Assembly: GCF_027595985.1 (NCBI RefSeq)
Contig: NC_073303.1
Coordinates: forward strand, 327,483,679-327,547,678
Reading direction: 5' to 3'
Source: Sorex araneus
Lineage: Eukaryota; Chordata; Mammalia; Eulipotyphla; Soricidae
Length of the DNA stretch: 64,000 nt
Positions within the stretch are counted from its first letter, which is position 1; each line of letters starts with the position of its first letter. Below are positions 5,246 to 63,045 of the stretch, piece by piece. The notes under the pieces were generated by a model, which ran no database searches, had not been told where the DNA came from, and worked only from the letters and a program-made list of their open reading frames with translations. The position numbers and the translations under genes were made by a program.

Positions 5246-5513
5246 CTACAGCTGGAGCGATAGCAGGACTGGAGCAATAACACAGCGGGTAGGGTGTTTG
5301 CCTTGCATACAGCTGACCTGGGTTCAATTCCTATGTCCCTCTCGGAGAGCCCGGCAAGCTACATAGAGTATCCTGGCCACATGGCAGAGCCTGGCAAGCT
5401 ATCTGTGGCATATTTGATATGCCAAAAACAGTAACAATAAGTCTCATAATGGAGACGTTACTGGTGCTCACTCGAGCAAATCTATGAACAACGGGACAAC
5501 AGTGCTATAGTGC
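5246..5513 (+). mobile_element. SINE-R, full length, with 14-bp target-site duplication
   Basis: Flanked by TACTTGCTAACTAA at 5232-5245 and 5514-5527. The element has a tRNA-type head (A box near taacacagcgggtaggg, B box gggttcaattcc), an RTE-leader-derived body (tctcggagagcccggcaagc … atgccaaaaacagtaaca) and the RTE-derived tail (gttactggtgctcactcgag), ending in agtgctatagtgct. A partial extra head, gctggagcgatagca, precedes the true head at about 5250-5264. That suggests a template jump at the 5' end. Confidence 0.92.
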
Positions 5514-7955: not shown

Positions 7956-8208
7956 ATCACTGTATCACTGTCATCCTCTTGCTCATCCATTTGCTCAAGC
8001 GGGCACCAGTAACATCTCCATTGTGAGACTTGTTGTTACTGTTTTTGGCATATCGAATATGCTACTGGTAGCTTGCCAGGCTTTGCCATGTGTGGGGGGG
8101 GGATAGTCTCGGTAGCTTGCCGGGCTCTCTGAGAGGGACCAAGGAATTGAACCCAGGTCAGCCGTGCGCAAGGCAAACGCCCTACCTGCTTTGCTATAGT
8201 TCCACCCC
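7956..8208 (-). mobile_element. SINE-R, full length, with 10-bp TSD
   Basis: Target duplication GGTGAAATAT at 7946-7955 and 8209-8218. In sense (minus) orientation it runs from a tRNA-type head through the RTE-leader body to the RTE tail and (tgatacag)n. A run of nine Gs sits in the body at about 8093-8101. Confidence 0.92.
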
Positions 8209-27797: not shown

Positions 27798-28043
27798 GCA
27801 CTGTAGCACTGTTGTCCCGTTGTTCATTGATTTGCTCATGTGGGCACCAGTAAGTCTCCATTGTGAGACTTGTTACTGTTTTTGGCATATCGAATACGCC
27901 ACAGGGAGCTTGCCAGGCTCTGTCCTGCGGGCAGGATACTCTCGGTAGCTTGCTGGGCTCTCCGAGGAACAGAGGAATTGAACCCGGGTCAGCTGTGTGC
28001 AAGGCAAACGCCTTACCCTGATGTGCTATAGCTCTAGTCCAAA
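27798..28043 (-). mobile_element. SINE-R, full length
   Basis: Antisense copy with RTE-type tail (ttgttcattgatttgctcat), RTE-leader body (ttttggcatatcgaatacgc … cggtagcttgctgggctctc) and inverted head (ttgaacccgggtcagctg). Short flanking duplications taagtact at 27790-27797 and 28044-28051 sit inside a longer imperfect match. Confidence 0.9.
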
Positions 28044-32134: not shown

Positions 32135-32246
32135 ATCTTATTGCTATTTTTCTTTCTGTATATGTTCATCCATATCCAATATCCAATATGGATGAATGAA
32201 TGAATGAATAAATGAACATATACAGAAAGAAAAATAGCAATAAGAT
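32135..32246. repeat. Perfect 35-bp inverted repeat abutting a truncated SINE-R
   Basis: Arms 32135-32169 and 32212-32246 are exact reverse complements. The 42-base spacer contains (gaat)n and a small inner palindrome around ccaatatccaatatgg. The right arm lies inside an insertion bounded by ATATGTTCAT duplications, so it is a copied, inverted piece of the left flank. Confidence 0.95.
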
Positions 32247-32341
32247 ATGCCAAAAACAGTAACAATAAGTCTCTCAATGAGAGACGTTACTGGTGCCCGC
32301 TTGAACAAATCAATGAGCAACGGGATGACAATGATACAGTG
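32170..32341 (+). mobile_element. 5'-truncated SINE-R with fold-back 5' end and 10-bp TSD
   Basis: Target duplication ATATGTTCAT at 32160-32169 and 32342-32351. From about 32244 the insertion is SINE-R body (gatatgccaaaaacagtaac) and RTE-type tail ending gatacagtgat. Upstream of that, inside the duplication, lies the inverted copy of the left flank. Confidence 0.85.
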
Positions 32342-33799: not shown

Positions 33800-36700
33800 C
33801 TCTTTCGGACTCATTTCACTTAAAATGATACTCTCCATGTCCATCCATTAATAAGCAAATTTCATGACTTCATCTTCTATAACAGCTGCATAGTATTCCA
33901 TTGTGTAGATATACCAAAGTTTCTTTAACCAGTCATTTGTTCCTGGGCACTGCACTCAGGTTGTTTCCAGATTCTAGCTATTGTGAACAATGCTGCAGCA
34001 AACATAGAAGCGCAGATGTCATTTCATTTTTTTTTCTGCATCCCAGGCATGTATTCCCAGAAGTGATATTTCTGGGTTATATGGGAGCTCAATTTCTAGT
34101 TTTTGGAGGAATGCTCATATTGTTTTCCTAAAAGGCTGAACCAGTCGGCATTCCCATTAATAATGAATGAGAGTCCCTTTATCCCTTCATCCGTGCCAAC
34201 ACTGGTTGTTCTTGTTCTTGTTGATGTGTGCCAGTTTATGTGGTGTAAGATGATATCTTTCTTGTTTTGATTTTCATCTCTCTGATGATTAGAGATGTAG
34301 AGCATTTTTTTCATGTGTCCTTAGCAATTTGTATTTATTTTTGGAGGAAGTTTCTGTTCATTTCTTCTCCCCATTTGTTATGGGGGTTGGAGGTTTATTT
34401 TTTGTAAAGTTCTAAAAGGATATTAAGCTTCTACCTGACAGATACTGGGTAAACAATTTTTCCTATTCCTTGGGCTCTCTCTGTATTTTGGTCACTTTCT
34501 TTTGATGTGCAGAACTTTGTAGTTTAATTTAGTCCCATTTGTTTATCTTTTTTCCCACTTGCTTGGTCAGTGGTATTTCATTCTTGAAGATTACTTTAGT
34601 TTCAATAGCATGGAGGGTTCTGCCTACATTTTCCTCCATGTACCTTATGGATTCAGGTCTAATACTGAGGTCTTTAATCCACTTTGATCTGACTGTTGTG
34701 CATGGTGTTAAACAGAGGTCTGTGTTCATTTATCAGCATGTAGCTGTCCAGTTTTCTTAGCACCACTTGTTAAAGAGGTTTTCCTTGCTTCACTTCACAT
34801 TTATTGCTCCTTTATCAAAGATTGAGTGATCATATACTTGAGAGTCTGTGTCAGAATATTTAACTCTATTTCATTTGTCTTCGAGTCTGCTACTATTTCA
34901 ATGCCATGCTGTTTTATTTACTACTGCTTTGTGGTACAGTTTGAAGTGGGTAAGGTGATGCTACCCATCTTCTTCTCAAGGATCATTTTAGCTATTTGTG
35001 GGGGTTTATTTCTCCATATGAATTTCAGAAGTGTTTTGTCTATTTCTCTGAAAAATGTCATGGGCATCCTTATAGGGACCACATTGATCTGTATAATGCT
35101 TTGGAGAGTAGTGTCATTTTGACAATGTTAATCCTTATACATGAGCAGATGTGTCTCCATTTCCTGGTGTCCTCTTTTATTTCTTGAAGTAGCATTTTGT
35201 GGTTTTCTTCATATAGGTCCTTCCTATCTTTAGTTAAACTGATTCTAAGCTACTTGATTTTTCTGAGGCACTATTGTGAGCGGGATTTTTTCTTTTAAAT
35301 ATCTCTCTTCTCTTTATTTATTTATAGGAAAACCATGGATTTGGGGGTATTAATTTTATAACCTGCCACTTTACTAATCAAACCAATTATTTCTGGGAGC
35401 TTTTCTGTAGAGTCTTTAGGATTTTCTAAGTATCATATTGGTGTCTGCTCGCTTCTGGAACATGAAGAGCATCAAATGCAGCAGACACCATTGGGCTACA
35501 CTAGCATGCGACAGGGACAGACGGAGATGTTTTCAATGCCCGCTTGAGCAAATCGATGAGCAACGGGATGACAGGTGATACAAGTGATTCAGTATCATGT
35601 TATCTGCAAATAGTGATAGCTTGACTTCTTCCTTTCCTATCTGGATGCTCTTGGTATCTTTTCCTTGCCAAACTGCTATGGCAAGTAATTCCACTACTAC
35701 ATGGAATAGAAGTAGCAAGAGTGGGTAACCTTGTCTTATTCCTGATCTTAGAGGAAATGCTTATAGTTCTTCCCCATTAAGAATAATGCTTTTTGTAGGC
35801 TTGAAGTGAAGTAAATGGCTTAGACTATACTGAGAAAAGTTCCTTCGACTCCCATTTTGTTGTGAGTCTTTATCATAAATGGGTGCTGGATCTTGTCAAA
35901 TGCCTTCTTTGATCTAGTGATATGATCATATGGTTACTATATTTCTTTTTATTGATATGATGTATTGTGTTGTTTGATTTGCAAGTGCTGAACCATCCTT
36001 GCATCCCCAGGATGAATTTTATTTGGTCATGGTGCATGATATGTTTGATAAGTCTTTGGATTCTTTTTGCAAGTATTTTGTTGAGGATTTCTGTGTATGT
36101 GTTCCTCAAGGAAATAGGCCTGTATTTCTCTTTTTTTGTGATGTCTCTTTCTGCTTTTGGTATGAGGATGATATTTGCCTCATAGAAACTGCAAGTGTTT
36201 CTGTTTCTTTAATTTCTTGGAAAAGCTTGAATAGGATTGGGAGTTGGTCCTCTTCAAGGGTTTGGAAAAATTTATTAGTGAACCCATCTGGGCCAAGGCT
36301 TTTGTTTTTTGAGAGACTTTTTATTACTACTTAAATTTCCTTGATGGTAATACATCTGTTCAGGTATTATGAGTCTTCTTGGGTCAGATTTGGGAGAGTA
36401 TAGAAATCCAGGAATTTATCCATTTTTTCAAGATTTTCTTGTTTCGTGGTATAGAGATCCTCAAAGTAATCTCTGATTATTCTTTAAATTTCTGTGGTTT
36501 CTATTGTGAATTCCCCCATTTAGTTTGTGATTCTCTTTATTAAGGGTCTGTCTCTTTCTTTGTGAGTCTTACTAGTGGTTTATACAACTTGTTTACTTTC
36601 TCAAAAAAAAAAAACCAGCTTTTGGTTTCATTGATTCTTTGGATTATTTTTTTGGTTTCCATGTGATTAATTTCTTTCCCCCCTTCCTGGTTTGGGCTCA

Positions 36701-49393: not shown

Positions 49394-49421
49394 TTTGTCA
49401 AAATTAAACGTATATATGTAT

Positions 49422-49549
49422 CTCTGTCACTGTCACTGTCATCCTGTTGCTTATCGATTTGCTCGAGCAAGCACCAGTAACATCTCCATTGTGAGACTTC
49501 TTGTTATTGAATACACCAAGGGGAGCTTGCCAGGTTCTTCCGTGGAGGG
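49422..49549 (-). mobile_element. SINE-R, 5'-truncated
   Basis: (ctgtcactgtcactgtcat) end repeats, RTE-type tail (gatttgctcgagcaagcacc) and a shortened body (ggggagcttgccaggttctt). No head. Confidence 0.85.
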
Positions 49550-52720: not shown

Positions 52721-53276
52721 AAATAAGTTCTAACTGAATAATTTCAGTTACTGATTTTCCTAACTTTGTCACTGCAAACACCAAAAAGATTTTTGGCCAA
52801 GTCATGCAATTTTCTATAGATAATTAAAGAAGATTAATTTCATCCAATTTAATCAGAATTAAACAGACTTTCATAGTACATAGTAGTACTCCTGCTCACA
52901 TGGAGAAGAGGCATAAAGACTCAGATAACACAATCAAATAAATATAATTGATAAATTTTTAAACTGTGCAAAATTGTTTTTTTCTATGGACTTTTTTTTC
53001 ATCATCAAGTATAATGTCTACTTCTCATTGTCTGCTCTTTGGGGCTTTTTTTTTTGTCCAAAAAAATAAAATTGCAAAACGCCTTGCTGCTGCAAGTGTC
53101 ATTGTTCTGAAGACAGAATCTAAATCTCTCATCCTCCCTAGGGCTAGAAAACTGGTTTTCCAGGATCCTATTTCTCCCAGCAAACAGAACACAAAGAACC
53201 ACTATCAGTTATTTTGCAGGCAGGTGCCTCTATCTGTGTGGGTAAACATCTAAATTTTTGTTGTTGTTGTTATTAT
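52721..53276. other. Unassigned intergenic DNA
   Basis: AT-rich; a short (TTG)n run at about 53258-53271. The frame at 52966-53253 shows no domain. Confidence 0.45.
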
Positions 53277-53283
53277 GCTTGAG

Positions 53284-53535
53284 GGGACTGGAGCAATAAC
53301 ACAGTGGGTAGGGTGTTTGCCTTGCACGCCGCCGACCCAGGTTTGATTCCTCCGTTCCTCTCAGACAGCCGGGCAAGCTCCCCAGAGTATTCCACCTGCA
53401 TGCCAGAGCCTGGCAAGCTCCCCGTGGCGTATTCAATATGCCAAAAACAGTAACAACAAGTCTCACAATGGAGATGTTACTGGTGCCCGCTTGAGCAAAT
53501 CGATGAACAATAGGACGACAGTGCTACAGAAAGTA
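53284..53535 (+). mobile_element. SINE-R, full length, 7-bp TSD
   Basis: GCTTGAG at 53277-53283 and 53536-53542. Head gcaataacacagtgggta, body (agccgggcaagctccccaga … atgccaaaaacagtaacaac), RTE-type tail (cgcttgagcaaatcgatgaa) ending gacagtgctacag. Confidence 0.93.
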
Positions 53536-53542
53536 GCTTGAG

Positions 53543-53902
53543 AAATGGGAGTTAGGGTGGCAGAATGACTCTCTAGCTTTACTAGGCAGTTGAGAGCAGA
53601 GCTGGGATCATGACTTTGCATTCAGAGCCTTCCTGGCTTGGTGAGGGGACCTGGTGTTCTGAATGACTGAATGCGCAGGTCCTGGCGAAATGGTTTCACA
53701 AGCGAAAGTTTTGGCTTCTTAACCATGAAAAAAAGAAAGAAATTCAAAACTGAAGTCCACAATGTGCTTCAAGATGAGGGCCACAACTGTGCCTGGAGAT
53801 CTTGAAATGCTAAATTATAGATCCTTGGTACCAAGTCTCCAGTTGATTATCCAAGTGTTAGAGGAAGCATGTGCCATTCAAGGAGCCAGCATTAGTCCAT
53901 TT
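53543..53902. other. Unassigned intergenic DNA
   Basis: Nothing recognised. Confidence 0.45.
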
Positions 53903-57078: not shown

Positions 57079-58277
57079 TCACTTGTATCACTTGTCATCC
57101 CATTGATCTTTGATTTGCTCGAGCGGGTGCCAGTTATGTCTCCGTTTGTCCCTGTAGCATGCTAGTGTAGCCCAATCGTATCTGCTCATTCCAGAAACAG
57201 GAAGAGCCTCAAGCTGTTCGTTCAGGGTTTTGACAAAGAAGTCTGGCCGTCTTTTCGGTGGGCAGCCACTCAGTCTTTTTACATTCGGTAGAATCCAGTC
57301 GGCAACAGCTCTAGTCCAGCGGTCTTCTCTGAACTGCATTATGTGTCCGGCCCATCTGATTTTTGACGCCTTGGCAAACGAGACAGCATCCCTGATTCTT
57401 GATCCTTGACAGAGGTCAGGACTCTGGATTCCTTCTCTCACTTGAGTGAAACGTGATACTCCAACCATAGCTCTTTTGATTCCTCTTTGTGACACCGGAA
57501 TAGCATTCTCATCCTATTTGCTTAGGGTCCAGATCTCTGAGGCATATGTTAGTGCAGGAAGAACGGTGGAATCAAAAAGATGTGCCCAGACCCAAAGGTT
57601 CTTTGTCCTCTTAACCACTTTTTCAACGCTCTTAAAGGCGTTCCATGCTGCTCTCTTCCTCCTGTGCAGTTCTGGCGCCAAGTTGTTCCTCATGTTGTGT
57701 TCTCGACCCAGGTACACATACCTGCTGCATTGTTTGCTGAGATGTTCATTTCATTAAGAGCAAATGGAATGTCAGGGAGTAGTTCATTTTTCATGAACAT
57801 TGTTTTGGTGAGATTCAGCTGCAGTCTGACCTTTCCACACTTGCGGTCGAAGTCGGCCAGCATTTGTGCCGGTTGGCTAATGTTTAGTGTTATTAGAATG
57901 ATGTCATCAGCGAAGCTTAGGTGGTGTAGTTGCTGATTGTCTATCTTCACTCTTATTCCTTCCCATTCCAGTCCTCACATGACGTTCTCGAGGGTGGCAC
58001 TGAAGCTTTTTCTTGATGGTGGCACTGAAGCGTTTTGGTGAAATGGTATCACCCTGCTGAACTCCTCTCTTTATGTCAATGATCACTTCCTTGTAGAATG
58101 GTGAGATCCTGGTGGTGAATCCATAATACAGCTCGCAGAGAATCTTGATGTACTGAGTTTGAATGCCCTGTTTGGCTAGGGCTTAGATGACCACTTCAGT
58201 CTCAATATAATCAAAGGCTTTCTTTAAATCGTGAACGTTAGACAAAGCGGCATCTTGAACTCTCGTGAAACTTCAAT
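57079..58277 (-). mobile_element. RTE-clade LINE copy 1, 5'-truncated
   Basis: In sense (minus) direction it starts in the middle of the RT domain and runs to the 3' end, finishing gatacaagtgataac-type repeats instead of poly(A). Similar words aaaaagttat (left) and agaaagttaat (right, about 58284) may be the target duplication. A 24-bp stretch (ggtggcactgaagc…) is tandemly repeated at about 57993-58031. Confidence 0.88.
57088..58268 (-). pseudogene. RTE reverse transcriptase C-terminal half, broken
   Basis: In sense order the parts are: AFDYIE (RT motif A) near 58225; RELYYGFTTRISPFYK and RGVQQGDTIS near 58120-58050; the catalytic SFADDIILIT near 57920; KTMFMKN; YLGRE; RRKRAAWNAFKSVE; HLFDSTVLPALTYASE; RQ/SKIRWAGHIM; RWTRAV; and the final NWHPLEQIKDQ. 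The product would be the polymerase half of the RTE endonuclease–RT protein, which copies element RNA at a nicked target. It is broken by an amber stop after TLSK (about 57516), a frameshift near 57735, stops near 58180, and the 24-bp duplication. The FADD box is intact. Confidence 0.88.
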
Positions 58278-58344
58278 TAAGAAAGTTAATAAAAGAGTAA
58301 ATCCATGAATTGGAATAGAAACTCATTTTGACTGTGGGCCTGAG

Positions 58345-58775
58345 AGACATTTCAATGGGCACAGTGCATTCTTTGCATGCAGGAGACCTGGGTTCATTTC
58401 TTGGCACTACCTGGTACCGTAGGGCTGGAGTGATAGCACATTGGTTGGGCTTTCGCCTTTCATGTGGCCAACCCATGTTCGATTCCTCCGCCCCTCTCAG
58501 AGAGCCCGGCAAGCTACCAAGAGTATGGAGCTCGCATGGCAGAGCCTGGCAAGCTACCCGTGTGTATTGGATATGCCAAAAACAGTAACAATAAGTCTCT
58601 CAATGAGAGATGTTACTGGTGCCTGCTCGAACAAATCGATGAGCAACGGGATGACAGTGACAGTGACAGTGACCTGGTACCCTAGACACCACTGGGAGCA
58701 ATCCCACAAACTTGATCCCAGAGCAGTCCCTGGACACTATCAGGTGTGGCCCTCAGCCCCCATAAAACAAAAATG
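58345..58775 (+). mobile_element. Old SINE-A-like element, split by a SINE-R
   Basis: The left part (58345-58418) has gcatgcaggagacctgggtt. The right part (58682-58775) has ccactgggagcaatcccac and 'ccctggacactatcaggtgt'. They read as one element once the SINE-R and its duplication are ignored. Confidence 0.75.
58419..58672 (+). mobile_element. Young SINE-R nested in a SINE-A, 9-bp TSD
   Basis: CCTGGTACC at 58410-58418 and 58673-58681. Complete head, RTE-leader body (cagagagcccggcaagctac), tail (gcctgctcgaacaaatcgat) and pure (gacagt)n end repeats. Confidence 0.95.
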
Positions 58776-58797
58776 TAGTCCAGATGGGGGTATTAAT

Positions 58798-58836
58798 ATA
58801 TACAAATAGGGGTATTAATATATACAAATACCTTTA
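58798..58836. repeat. Short tandem duplication
   Basis: ggggtattaatatatacaaa occurs twice, back to back, at about 58787 and 58808. Confidence 0.85.
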
Positions 58837-58935
58837 AGTTAGAGTTGCTGTGGGAAAAACATATAAGTGCTTATACTAAGTACCAGAAAACTCATCCCAA
58901 TCAAATCAACATCTCTTTTAGAGTAGTGTTGTCAT

Positions 58936-59055
58936 TGTTGGGGACAATTGGCAGTGTCTGGGAATAGGTCTTTTGCAACAGGCATGTGTGAGCTAGTGAC
59001 ATCTAGTGGACGGAGGCCAGGGATGCTGCTAAATAGCCTTTAAAGCACAGGTAAA
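58936..59055 (+). mobile_element. MER5A-like hAT MITE
   Basis: ttggggacaattggcagtgt, agctagtgacatctagtgg, ggaggccagggatgctgcta and aaagcacag follow the MER5A consensus order. Its age shows that 58280-59658 is ancestral host DNA rather than part of an RTE. Confidence 0.78.
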
Positions 59056-59062
59056 CCCACGT

Positions 59063-59658
59063 TCCCATTATTATACTAATAATTAATTTACTCCTCAGAC
59101 AATTTGTGTACAGCATAAGAAATGTTTTGATATAAAAAATATGGTCCACAAATATTTGCTTCTTCTTTCATTGATATATTGGTCTGTTCTCCTTGTGGGT
59201 GCCTTGAGTAATTAAATACATGAAGGAAATGTTTATATTCCAGATTGATGGTCTTCATAGATGTTTTGGCTCCTGCCAGTGCTCCCTGGGACCATTTACT
59301 AGGTTCTTTGGGATGCTTCCCTGAGTCTATCACGAACTCCATGAGGCCATATAAAGTAGACAGGAAGGCCCAGCAATCTTAGCTGTACCCACAAAATTAG
59401 CACCTTCCTCAGCAGAGTGAGAAATAGCGAGTGGCTATTTTAAGTCACGAGTATTTGGGCTGGCACATACTTCAACAATAGACATTGAAGCTATGGAGAG
59501 AGCTTACCTTCCCTCTGTGTTTTCTAAACTAGGGTCCACTTGATCTTCGGAAAGGTCAGCGGTCAGCGTTGAAAGCAATTGCTTTGTCTGCAGTGACATT
59601 CTTTAACTCAGTAGCAATTGTGTATGTTTAAGGAAAGATAATAGGAAAAAGAAACAGT
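59063..59658. other. Unassigned host DNA between RTE copies
   Basis: No gene recognised; the minus frame at 59088-59342 has no domain. Confidence 0.45.
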
Positions 59659-59671
59659 ATATCATTTGTGG

Positions 59672-60815
59672 CTTTCTCACTCTCGGCATTCTTCGCACAG
59701 ACATGGAGGTGCTGAACCAGTCGATCGTATTCCTCGTCGTCAATATTGTCAAGGACGGCATCTTCCCACGTTGCTGCAATAGTGCCAAAGAGCTCCCAGT
59801 TGGTGGTCATTCTGGGAGTTGTCTTCTTAGACTTAAATTTTGCAGACTTTTCTCCCCGCTCTGTGAAGTAGAATTTCGCACGAAGGAGATGTTGGTCTGA
59901 TCCTGTTTGGAATTTTGGGACGACAGCGATATCAGGCAAAGCCTTCGATTGCAAAAAAAAAAAGGGGGGGGGGGCTGGAGAGATAGCACATCGGGTAGGG
60001 CGTTTGCCTTGCACGTGGCCGACCTGGGTTCAAATCCCAGCATCCCATATGGTCCCCTGAGCACGGGCAGGGGTAATTCCTGAGTGCATGAGCCAGGAAT
60101 AACCCCTGTGCATCGCCAGGTGTGACCCAAAAAGCAAACAAACAAACAAACAAACAAAAAACCTTCGATTGAATATGATGTGGTCAATTTCATTGTGGAA
60201 CTGTCCACTGGAAGGCTCCTATGTCCAGCATTTAGATTCGGCCTTCTGAAACTGTGAGTTACCATGGATGGTCTTGGTCAACATGATGAATTCAGACAGT
60301 CTCTCACCCTGGTTGTTCCATTCTCGGCCCTGTGTCCCAATGTGGAGTTCTTCGGGTGACCTTCTCGGACCTATCTTGGCATTAAAATCACCAACAATGA
60401 TCTTGTAGAAGGTGTGGTCTTCTTTATAGATCTTCTCCAGTTCCATGTAGAACCTCTCAATTTCTTCTTCATCGTAGTTGGAAGTTGGTGCGTAGACGAT
60501 GAAGATAGAAACTGCAGGCAGTGAGCCACATCTATTCAAGCGTAATCGTCCAATTTGGGTTGTTAGGCATTTGAATGAATCGATGCTCATGGCCAAGTTT
60601 GTATGGACAAGGACACCAACGCCACCAACACCTCTGTTGTCACATGTTCCGAGGAACAATTCTTCTCCAGTGTTGAAAATGGCATGATATGATTGATGTC
60701 TCCTTGTTTCGATCAGTCCAATGATGTCGTGCTTGATCTTCTGTGCTTGTACCATCAGATCCTCGATGGATGCTTCTGATGCCACTGTCCATGTGTTGAA
60801 AGTACAAACAATCAT
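59672..60815 (-). pseudogene. RTE endonuclease (APE-type) domain, inverted 5' part
   Basis: Start codon at 60815. Residues 1-198 read MIVCTFNTWTV (conserved Asn of the APE fold), IIGLIETR (catalytic Glu), GVGGVGVLVH, FIVYAPTSNYDEEE and KIIVGDFNAKIG (catalytic Asp/Asn). After the SINE at 59971-60161 the frame resumes with VPKFQTGSDQHLLRAKF and continues to AKNAESEKAT, where the inverted segment ends. The role is nicking target DNA to prime reverse transcription. The usual SDH motif reads SDQH here, so the catalytic His appears displaced. The run of motifs strongly resembles nematode RTE proteins as I remember them. Confidence 0.88.
59971..60161 (+). mobile_element. SINE-A inserted in the RTE endonuclease, 10-bp TSD
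   Basis: CCTTCGATTG at 59942-59951 and 60162-60171. Full head, B box gggttcaaatccc, body and (caaa)n tail. An unusual c-A11-G run fills 59952-59970 between the left duplication and the element. Confidence 0.93.
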
Positions 60816-61648
60816 TTTAGTCTTTCTTCATTTTGGCAGTCTAGTTTGTCCCCGAGATTTTTTCAGCCTCTCTTTTCTCATCTATTTTTTTTTCTTTGTG
60901 CATCACACCCAGTGATACACAGGATTACTCCTGGCTCATGCACTCAGGAATTACCCCTGGTGGTGCTTGGGGGATCATATGGGATGCTGGGAATTGAACC
61001 TGGGTCGGCCGAGTGCAAGGCAAACGCCCTACCCGATGGGCTATTGCTCCAGCCCCTGCTCATCTTTCTTAATGCTGCCGTATTGGGGGCTCTTTCCGTG
61101 ACAGGTGAATGAGGCCAATTGTTGTTACTGTTGTTGGCATATTGAATACATGACGGGTAGCTTGCTAGGCTCTGTCGTGTGGGCACAATACTCTCGGTAG
61201 CTTGCCGGGCTCTCCGAGAGGGATGAAGGCATTTAGGCCGGCCTCCAATCGCCCTTAGAGGTGTTACCATGGTTCACACCAAATTTGAACCCTATCAAAT
61301 ATGATGCGGGAATAATAGGTATTAAAGTGTGTTATGGTGTATTGTGTGGCCGCAAATCGGCCTCGCGGTCCGGAGAGCAATCTGGAGGGTGGCGGTGGCT
61401 GGGTAGTGGATGTAGTGGGGGTTGGCCAGTGAAGTATTTATCTTGGGTAGGGTGGGGCGTCTGGGTTGGACCCCTCCCTCAGATGCCGGAGATTGGAGGA
61501 GGCAGACAAAGGATCTTGTTTCCAGGTCTCATTGAACCTAGAGCTAAGGTCGCAAAGTTCTGCTTACCTGGCTTTTCGGGGCATCACTGGAGCGTGAGGT
61601 TTGGCCCAAGTGTCCGGAGAGCAAGCTGGAGGTGGCGGTGGCTGGATA
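60816..61648 (-). mobile_element. RTE 5' leader (inverted part of copy 2), source of the SINE-R body
   Basis: Sense (minus) sequence upstream of the RTE start codon. From about 61223 to 61120 it matches the SINE-R body almost base for base (ctctcggagagcccggcaag … aatatgccaacaacagtaac). From about 61115 to 60830, skipping the SINE-A, it matches the element at 1-177. Further upstream a GC-rich word set (gtccggagagcaa…ggtggcggtggctgg on plus) occurs twice, at 61368-61407 and 61612-61650, about 244 bp apart, suggesting tandem leader units that could hold the promoter. Confidence 0.68.
60884..61056 (-). mobile_element. SINE-A inserted in the RTE 5' leader
   Basis: Antisense copy from T-rich end to ctattgctccagcccc. 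CTCATCT at 60877-60883 and 61059-61065 is the likely target duplication. Confidence 0.9.
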
Positions 61649-61649
61649 G

Positions 61650-62572
61650 TTGATACCATTTCACTGAAACTCTTCAGTGCCGCCCTTGAAAACATCATGC
61701 GATGACTGGAATGGGAAGGAATGGGAGTGAAGATAGACGGTCGGCAATTACACCACCTCCACTTCACTGATGACATCGTTCTCATAACACCAAACATTAG
61801 CCAAGTGGCACAAATGCTGGCCAACTTCAACCACGAGCGTGAAAAGGTTGGATTGCAGCTGAATCTCAACAAGACGATGTTCATGAAAAACAAACTCGTC
61901 CCTGAAGCTCCATTTGCTCTCAATGGAACAAACATCTCCAAATGCAGCAGCTATGTGTACCTGGGTCGAGAAATCAACATGAGGAACAACTTGGTGCCAG
62001 AACTGCTCAGGAGGAAGAGAGCAGCATGGAATGCATTCAAGAGTGTCGAAGAGGTGGTTAAGAGAACGAAGAACCTCCAACTCCAGGCACATCTTTTTGA
62101 TTCCACTGTTCTTCCTGCACTAACATATGCCTCAGAGACCTGGACCCTACGCAAACAGGATGAGAATGCCATTAGGGTATCCCAAAGAGGAATTGAAAGA
62201 GCTATGCTGGGAATATCATGTCTCACTCAAGTGAGAGAAGGAATCCAGAGTTCTGACCTCCGTCAACGGTCAAAAATCAGGGATGCTGTCTCGTTTGCCA
62301 AGGCATCGAAAATCAGATGGGCTGGTCATGTAATGCGATTCAGAGACGACCGCTGGACTAGAGCTGTTACTGACTGGATTCCACAGGACGTCAGAAAACC
62401 TTGTGGCCATCCACCAACTAGATGGTCAGATTTCTTCATCAAATCCCTTAATGAACAATTTGAGGCTCTTCCTGTTCCTGGAGCGAGCAGATATCATTGG
62501 GCTGCACTAGCTCACGATAAGGACAAATGGATACGTTACTGGCTCCCGCTCGAGCAAATCAAAGATCAATGA
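61650..62572 (+). pseudogene. RTE reverse transcriptase C-terminal half, sense part of copy 2
   Basis: Begins in DTISLKLFSAALEN (RT motif B region). A TGA at about 61703 interrupts it, then 283 codons stay open from the ATG at 61721. They include the catalytic box as FTDDI (Thr for the usual Ala), MLANFNHE, LQLNLNKTMFMKN, YVYLGREINMRNN, RRKRAAWNAFKSVEEVV, HLFDSTVLPALTYASETW, RGIERAMLGIS, SKIRWAGHVMRF, RWTRAVTDWIP, and the natural end YWLPLEQIKDQ-stop. The last codons are the ones shared in frame with SINE-R tails. So long an open frame suggests a fairly recent copy. Confidence 0.92.
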
Positions 62573-62605
62573 GACTACAAGTGATACAAGTGATATCATT
62601 TGTGG

Positions 62606-63045
62606 AGTATAGAATAACATCACATGAGGCTGACACACAAGGACAGTAGATAACAAGGACCAGAAGGATTGCCCCATAGCTGCAAGCCTGCTTCATGAGC
62701 GGAGGAGAGAAGGCAGATGGAATAGAGAATGGATCACTAAGAAAATGATGGCTGGAGGACTCAGTCGGGATTGGAGATTCGTGCCAAAAGTGGATAATGG
62801 ACCAAACAGGATGACCTCTCAGTGTCTGTGTTGCAAGCCGTAATGCCCAAAAGTAGGAAGAGAGTATGGGGATATTGTCTGCCATGGAGGCAGGGGGAGG
62901 GTGGGAGAGGGGAATATACCAGGGATATTGGTGGTGGGGAATGTGCAGTGATGGAGGGATGGGTGTTTTATCATTGTGTGATTTTAACCCAAACATGAAA
63001 GCTTGTAACTATCTCATGGTGATTCAATAAAATTTAAAAAATAAC
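62606..63045 (+). mobile_element. L1 3' end flanking the RTE insertion
   Basis: agtatagaataacatcacat, then the G-rich 3' UTR (gaggcagggggagggtggga), gtgcagtgatggagggatgg, gaaagcttgtaactatctca and an A-rich tail. The RTE copy 2 target lies at or near its truncated 5' end. Confidence 0.9.

Follow-up and report, generated by a model that had tools for sequence, protein, structure and literature searches.

SINE-R of Sorex araneus, a composite SINE with a Sor head and two pieces of an RTE LINE

The stretch of Sorex araneus DNA analysed here (64,000 nucleotides of contig NC_073303.1, hereafter the window) carries two retrotransposon families with a common 3' end, a long interspersed element (LINE) of the RTE type and a short interspersed element (SINE) called SINE-R. 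The initial annotation, made from the sequence alone, had read SINE-R as the non-autonomous partner of this RTE. That reading is supported but was incomplete, missing the RTE 5' untranslated region (5'UTR) that forms the body of SINE-R, its head from the SINE Sor, the intermediate forms and the probable identity of the RTE with RTE1_Sar. The five SINE copies named then are all present in the window. SINE-R copies of older type lie at 5265-5513 and 53284-53535 (both plus strand), and one of the youngest subfamily seen lies at 58419-58672 (plus), with the target-site duplication (TSD) ACCTGGTACC[G/C]TAG. On the minus strand are the copies at 7956-8208 (tail GATGACAGTGATACAGTGAT, TSD ATATTTCACC) and 27798-28043 (TSD AGTACTTA, imperfect beyond), and 5'-truncated copies are found at 32244-32334 (plus) and 49421-49509 (minus). 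The junction between the 5'UTR and 3'-end parts is spanned by seven SINE-R copies in the window. Three more stretches are tail-only, of which the one at 35523 is an RTE fragment and not SINE-R.

The RTE at 59672-62592 is one insertion with an inverted 5' part, flanked on the plus strand by copies of ATATCATTTGTGG at 59659-59671 and 62593-62605 (the first AT of the right copy may belong to the tail). Its inverted segment with the endonuclease (EN) region (59672-60882, minus) is interrupted by a Sor-type poly-A SINE at 59975-60160 (plus), and a second Sor-type poly-A SINE (60886-61055, minus) lies between EN and the 5'UTR. The inverted 5'UTR, of about 600 bp (61058-61655, minus), includes the piece homologous to the SINE-R body (61119-61241, minus) and is followed by the 3' part of the same insertion, with the end of the reverse transcriptase frame, the stop and the tail repeats (61650-62592, plus). 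About 1 kb of the middle is missing, in the coordinates of RTE locus L048. The stretch at 57079-58280 (minus) stands apart from it, being the 3' fragment of a 5'-truncated copy that belongs to an older RTE subfamily, and no convincing TSD was found for it; an arrangement of two simple RTE copies in 57079-62605 is ruled out by the ATATCATTTGTGG repeats that bracket 59672-62592. The RTE 3' ends lie where they had been placed initially, at 57093-57142 (minus) and 62530-62579 (plus). Note that 5'-inverted (twin-primed) copies also occur elsewhere, in three of the four loci chosen for a 5'UTR beside EN (L059, L060, L062) and, among the 20 loci L039-L058, in two or more (L047, L053). Directly 3' of the window RTE, positions 62606-63045 hold an older repeat with an A-rich end, pieces of which recur in 8 of the other loci fetched (67-78%).

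Exo_endo_phos (2.9e-8) and RVT_1 (4.2e-15) domains were detected in two of the four RTE pieces scanned, and the 10 PDB matches of the RTE include LINE-1 ORF2 and R2 chains. Its 3' end is short with a tandem, non-poly-A tail, as in LINEs of the RTE clade. The reverse transcriptase piece had no match in the viral contigs scanned, and a pattern search of other genome contigs returned 17 matches, none of them confirmed. In a first look at the 2.4 Gb genome (65 contigs), candidates for the RTE numbered at least 11718 when its 3' part was sought, at least 6898 with the 5'UTR and at least 6798 with the endonuclease part, and those for SINE-R at least 5369. Host and abundance liken the window RTE to RTE1_Sar, likewise an abundant shrew RTE, with which it is probably identical. 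RTE1_Sar is an RTE of Sorex araneus reported to have moved by horizontal transfer between the shrew lineage and strongylid nematodes, once shrews and hedgehogs had split; its full-length consensus is reported as 80.1% identical to that of a nematode, and a transfer from nematode to shrew is favoured by the authors, who nevertheless call the direction uncertain (PMC6542046).

SINE-R joins a Sor head of 63 bp to about 110 bp of RTE 5'UTR and closes with the terminal ~57-69 bp of that LINE. The SINE-R consensus, taken from 17 copies outside the query hits, agrees with that of 37 Sor copies at 62 of 63 head positions, from CTGGAG to GATTCC, beyond which the two diverge. Sor is a SINE of shrews (PMC11240701), and the consensus of the poly-A SINE found in the window and around it, GATTCCCAGCATCCCATATG, is identical to a primer published for a shrew SINE (PMC8608897), which marks the host as a shrew. 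RNA polymerase III (Pol III) A and B boxes were recognised in 24 and 23 of 27 best-hit SINE-R copies and in 9 and 7 of 17 older ones; the search expression of the box-motif and junction-hairpin step missed 13 of the 17 older and 7 of the 27 young copies. The body, SINE-R positions ~64-176, aligns to window positions 61232-61119 on the minus strand. This stretch lies within the 5'UTR unit, which has 39 other scored places (87-90% over at least 540 of 603 bases). Five of them adjoin an endonuclease match in the correct order, and in the four that were fetched (L059-L062) the 5'UTR runs unbroken into the endonuclease and holds the SINE-like piece with neither Sor head nor SINE tail. The 5'UTR of the window RTE likewise holds the piece free of Sor head and SINE tail, and L048 has a gapped version of it. 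Between its two RTE pieces SINE-R has no random filler, since its GTCTCA aligns to RTE GCCTCA. Two further features were observed. The RTE 5'UTR includes a direct repeat of ~44 bp (window 61340-61655, minus strand, and L059-L062). The youngest SINE-R subfamily (window 58590-58640; L083-L102) has GTCTCTCAATGAGAGAC at the junction of 5'UTR and 3' end, which forms a longer perfect hairpin than the GTCTCACAATGGAGAC of older copies.

The 3' ends of the SINE-R and RTE consensuses are identical in 53 of 59 columns (26 SINE-R copies, 30 RTE loci), with a local alignment score of 50 against a maximum of 19 among 2000 dinucleotide-Markov shuffles, which upholds the common 3' end proposed initially. In the RTE subfamily of the window copy 57079-58280 (20 ends) the 3' terminus reads ...CAACGGGATGACAAGTGATACAAGTGAT; SINE-R agrees with it in 64 of 69 columns and with the younger RTE subfamily in 62 of 69, both figures being computed with the tail variant of the SINE-R copy at 7956-8208. 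Of the 14 residues that the initial annotation gave for the translated SINE tail, each of the seven junction-spanning copies matches between 11 and 13, one copy having a stop. The RTE open reading frame (ORF) does run almost to the 3' terminus, with the consensus C-terminus ...YWRPLEQIEDQRDYK before the stop, so that any common 3' end is LINE coding sequence; the remark that this end is in frame with the RTE C-terminus is therefore right for the LINE and uninformative about the SINE. The short end repeats said to be shared are not the same in the two families: the tail unit of the RTE is mostly ACAAGTGAT, that of SINE-R ACAGTGA or CTACAGTG, and 1 of the 51 RTE ends read (L080) has ACAGTG in a single unit. 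At least three SINE-R tail units are seen, CAGTGA, ATACAGTG and CTACAGTG (L014, L055, L089, L091; window 7956-8208 and 27798-28043), perhaps marking successive subfamilies. The 3' block of the RTE folds like its shuffles (z -0.07 and 0.05) and that of SINE-R modestly better (z -1.69).

The sampled young and older RTE subfamilies all carry a 3' block of the CGAAGATC type, as do 51 of the 57 distinct RTE-like 3' ends compared. Both SINE-type changes occur in only one of these ends, the RTE 3' fragment at window 35488-35589 (plus), in which RTE coding sequence leads into a 3' end with the SINE-type CGATGAGCAAC but an RTE tail; the remaining five differ otherwise, two of them not being RTE proper (L049 is the internally deleted form RTE-N described below, L042 is SINE-R). 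A genome search with this fragment type gave 39 other places (84-89%). Among eight that were fetched, both changes (T and G) are present in six, one in L120 and none in L121. SINE-R may have been moved mainly by a poorly sampled RTE subfamily whose 3' block would read CGATGA(A/G)C and whose tail might be ACAGTG, a tentative proposal which we rate somewhat below even odds. It draws on the existence of such fragments and on the prevalence of CGAAGATC in the sampled subfamilies, but the fragment tails are ACAAGTG or ACAGGTG and not ACAGTG; tail units need not be the same in two partners, however, witness Bov-B and the Sauria SINE (PMC13295347). The proposal refines the partnership of SINE-R with the RTE and is not opposed to it.

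TSDs were found in 30 of 46 SINE-R copies, against 7 of 230 mismatched pairings, and in 18 of 38 Sor copies, against 9 of 190. The 30 include one case (L004, near 1748) in which two adjacent SINEs merely overlap. The RTE tally, 14 of 29 loci plus the window RTE, was scored otherwise than those of SINE-R and Sor and without a mismatched-pair control; two TSDs were set aside in compiling it (one with empty tail, L083), and that of the window RTE was entered manually as the fifteenth. At least three A among the first four TSD bases occur in 15 of 18 Sor copies and in only 2 of 30 SINE-R copies (p=8e-8), the RTE count being 1 of 15. A T directly before the TSD is seen in 21 of 30 SINE-R, 6 of 18 Sor (p=0.018) and 12 of 15 RTE copies, with a T background of 0.36. 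The target sites of SINE-R are like those of the RTE and unlike those of Sor. Sor ends in a poly-A tail and SINE-R does not. The same head is thus found with different tails and different insertion in one genome, and SINE-R sides with the RTE. Mobilisation of SINE-R by L1, as for Sor, with the RTE parts as passengers, could appeal to the common head and to the poly-A tails and A-rich target sites of Sor; it is rejected on this comparison of TSDs, 2 of 30 against 15 of 18, together with the missing poly-A tail, and we regard it as very unlikely.

The partnership of SINE-R with the RTE is further illuminated by forms of intermediate structure. RTE-N, first seen as L049, is an internally deleted RTE in which the 5'UTR is joined to the 3' end: the 5'UTR extends to GAAAGAGCCCCCAATATGCCATC and is followed by GGGCTACACTAGC and by the RTE 3' end with CGATGAACAACGGGATGACAGTGATACAGTGAT. 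It has 39 other scored places (85-89% over at least 159 of 165 bases) and 4178 candidates, and TSDs were found in 3 of 9 copies examined. Its CGATGAAC, ACAGTG tail and CCAAAAACAG are the same as in older SINE-R and unlike the RTE. L112 is an RTE-N with a Sor head whose point of attachment is, to the base, that of SINE-R, a pattern with 7 exact matches, L112 included, and none for the reversed control. The exact 15 + 15 base head/body pattern of SINE-R, in comparison, has 4466 matches, again with none for the reversed control. An acquisition of both ends by the RTE from the SINE could also have left two common blocks, but it is rejected as scarcely credible, given that the RTE 3' block encodes the end of the reverse transcriptase, that the 5'UTR block occurs free of Sor head and SINE tail, that headless and longer intermediates such as RTE-N exist and that the RTE1_Sar consensus is reported as 80.1% identical to one from a nematode (PMC6542046).

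Among 12 RTE-N copies (L103-L114), three (L105, L108, L111) have a VAV3-like stretch before the 5'UTR, L110 has only the end of this stretch and L107 only what follows it. In L111, 64 residues match human Vav-3 (PDB 2d86, E 1.2e-28), and CH-type domains are recognised in the stretches of L108 and L111. The match stops at ...QMSQ, at CAG|GT, as expected of a first exon and the start of its intron, and the head would accordingly correspond to VAV3 exon 1 plus intron. A 298-base search with it gave 39 other places (90-94% over at least 290 bases) and 2899 candidates. As read in the fetched loci, the VAV3-headed copies seem to be a sister family of SINE-R on an RTE-N type body.

Divergence was measured as non-CpG Kimura distance to the consensus. 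It is 0.037-0.109 (median 0.070, n=17) for SINE-R copies not chosen as hits and 0.005-0.026 (median 0.015, n=27) for young SINE-R best hits. Young RTE best hits give 0.015-0.028 (median 0.023, n=29), older RTE ends of about 100 bp each 0.011-0.151 (median 0.047, n=21) and RTE-N best hits 0.021-0.073 (n=12). Among RTE pieces not chosen as hits, a blast search gave a single clear case, L042 (0.067), besides L061, which was chosen by its 5'UTR (0.030). SINE-R divergences fall inside the RTE range and the activity periods overlap, within the bias of best hits. The partner reading thus survived both tests set beforehand: the 3' ends align beyond chance, and SINE-R is not older than all RTE copies. 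Junction-spanning SINE-R copies number 7 in the 64 kb window and 15 in 116 kb around RTEs; straight extrapolation gives, very roughly, some 260,000-310,000 copies in the genome.

We conclude, with a probability of roughly 0.9, that SINE-R is non-autonomous and that the shrew RTE, probably RTE1_Sar, mobilises it in trans; the case is made from sequence comparison. In the proposed course of events, RTE RNA would have lost its middle and given rise to the short RTE-N family, one RTE-N would have gained a Sor head at the base where SINE-R has it, and a second internal loss would have produced SINE-R, which then multiplied. The Sor head would serve Pol III as promoter of SINE-R, and the common 3' end would be recognised by the RTE protein, which would copy the RNA by target-primed reverse transcription, with priming presumably on the short tail repeat. 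Several points weigh against this account. Besides the separate scoring of the RTE TSDs, T|A at the nick does not separate SINE-R (16 of 30) from Sor (6 of 18; p=0.24; RTE 9 of 15), and the difference in upstream TTT is weak (14 of 30 versus 3 of 18, p=0.06; RTE 4 of 15). Nakatsuka and Ohshima describe features of this kind, T|A and a run of T upstream of it, for Bov-B and its SINE, whose tail units differ (PMC13295347). Most RTE and RTE-N copies and many SINE-R copies are best hits, which biases the ages. Rfam gave no tRNA match in the single stretch searched, window 53270-53545. The 5'UTR block of SINE-R is equally close to the young RTE (103/109) and to RTE-N (101/106), so that its donor is not discriminated, and the order from RTE-N through Sor-headed RTE-N to SINE-R is drawn from few copies without a tree.

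A wider history is, in our judgement, slightly favoured. RTE1_Sar would have entered from a parasitic nematode and lost its middle, and the shared tail would have taken up a VAV3-like exon and, separately, the Sor head that, with a second loss, made SINE-R, now among the abundant repeats, with all stages still present in one genome. Should the RTE be RTE1_Sar, SINE-R and the forms that preceded it can have arisen only once the nematode-shrew transfer had taken place, and their presence or absence at matching sites in other shrews would date that transfer independently of the RTE tree. The terms SINE, tRNA and non-autonomous are absent from the main text on RTE1_Sar (PMC6542046). In the portions of the literature available neither SINE-R nor RTE-N nor any VAV3-headed repeat was found described, the part examined of a table of LINE/SINE pairs lists no shrew pair (PMC3747384), and SINE-R sequence words and names such as SINE1_Sar occur in no relevant paper. 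Given their abundance, the three families are probably listed in Repbase, Dfam or SINEBase under some name.

SINE-R is a composite, RTE-driven SINE of an already known design whose making is still readable. SINEs of the Bov-tA/BovB system consist of a head, a piece of 5'UTR and the 3' end. Bov-tA and Bov-A2 with BovB are mammalian tRNA SINEs on a LINE of the RTE clade (PMC3747384), as SINE-R would be, but their RTE, head and tail are others. AfroSINE with RTE1_LA and SINE2-1_EC with RTE-1_EC are also mammalian tRNA SINEs with an RTE tail, in other hosts (PMC3747384). The reptilian Sauria SINE and Bov-B share the 3' end and the insertion signature while their tail units differ (PMC13295347), much as SINE-R and the RTE have a common 3' end, similar target sites and different tail units. 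Sor has only its first 63 bp in common with SINE-R and differs by its poly-A tail, its A-rich target sites and the lack of RTE parts. ManaSINE1 and other AviRTE SINEs combine, as SINE-R does, a promoter head with a bipartite tail made of part of the RTE 5'UTR and the 3' end; several heads stand on one tail, as in the shrew, and AviRTE is shared with nematodes by horizontal transfer, as reported for RTE1_Sar (PMC4844689). They differ in belonging to birds and in their heads, the shrew families having the whole head of the resident Sor or, in the sister family, a VAV3-like exon. The recurrence of head, 5'UTR piece and 3' end in AviRTE, BovB and SINE-R systems suggests that RTE RNA or protein needs some element of each end, and the same tail under three heads, with the same head over two tails, in one genome separates the role of the promoter from that of the tail. 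SVA_F1 with MAST2 exon 1 is a non-autonomous element headed by the first exon of a gene, as the VAV3-headed family seems to be, but it is human and moved by L1 (PMC6928650). If the scenario of nematode origin with VAV3- and Sor-headed descendants is true, the shrew families would be a mammalian RTE counterpart of both ManaSINE1 and SVA_F1.

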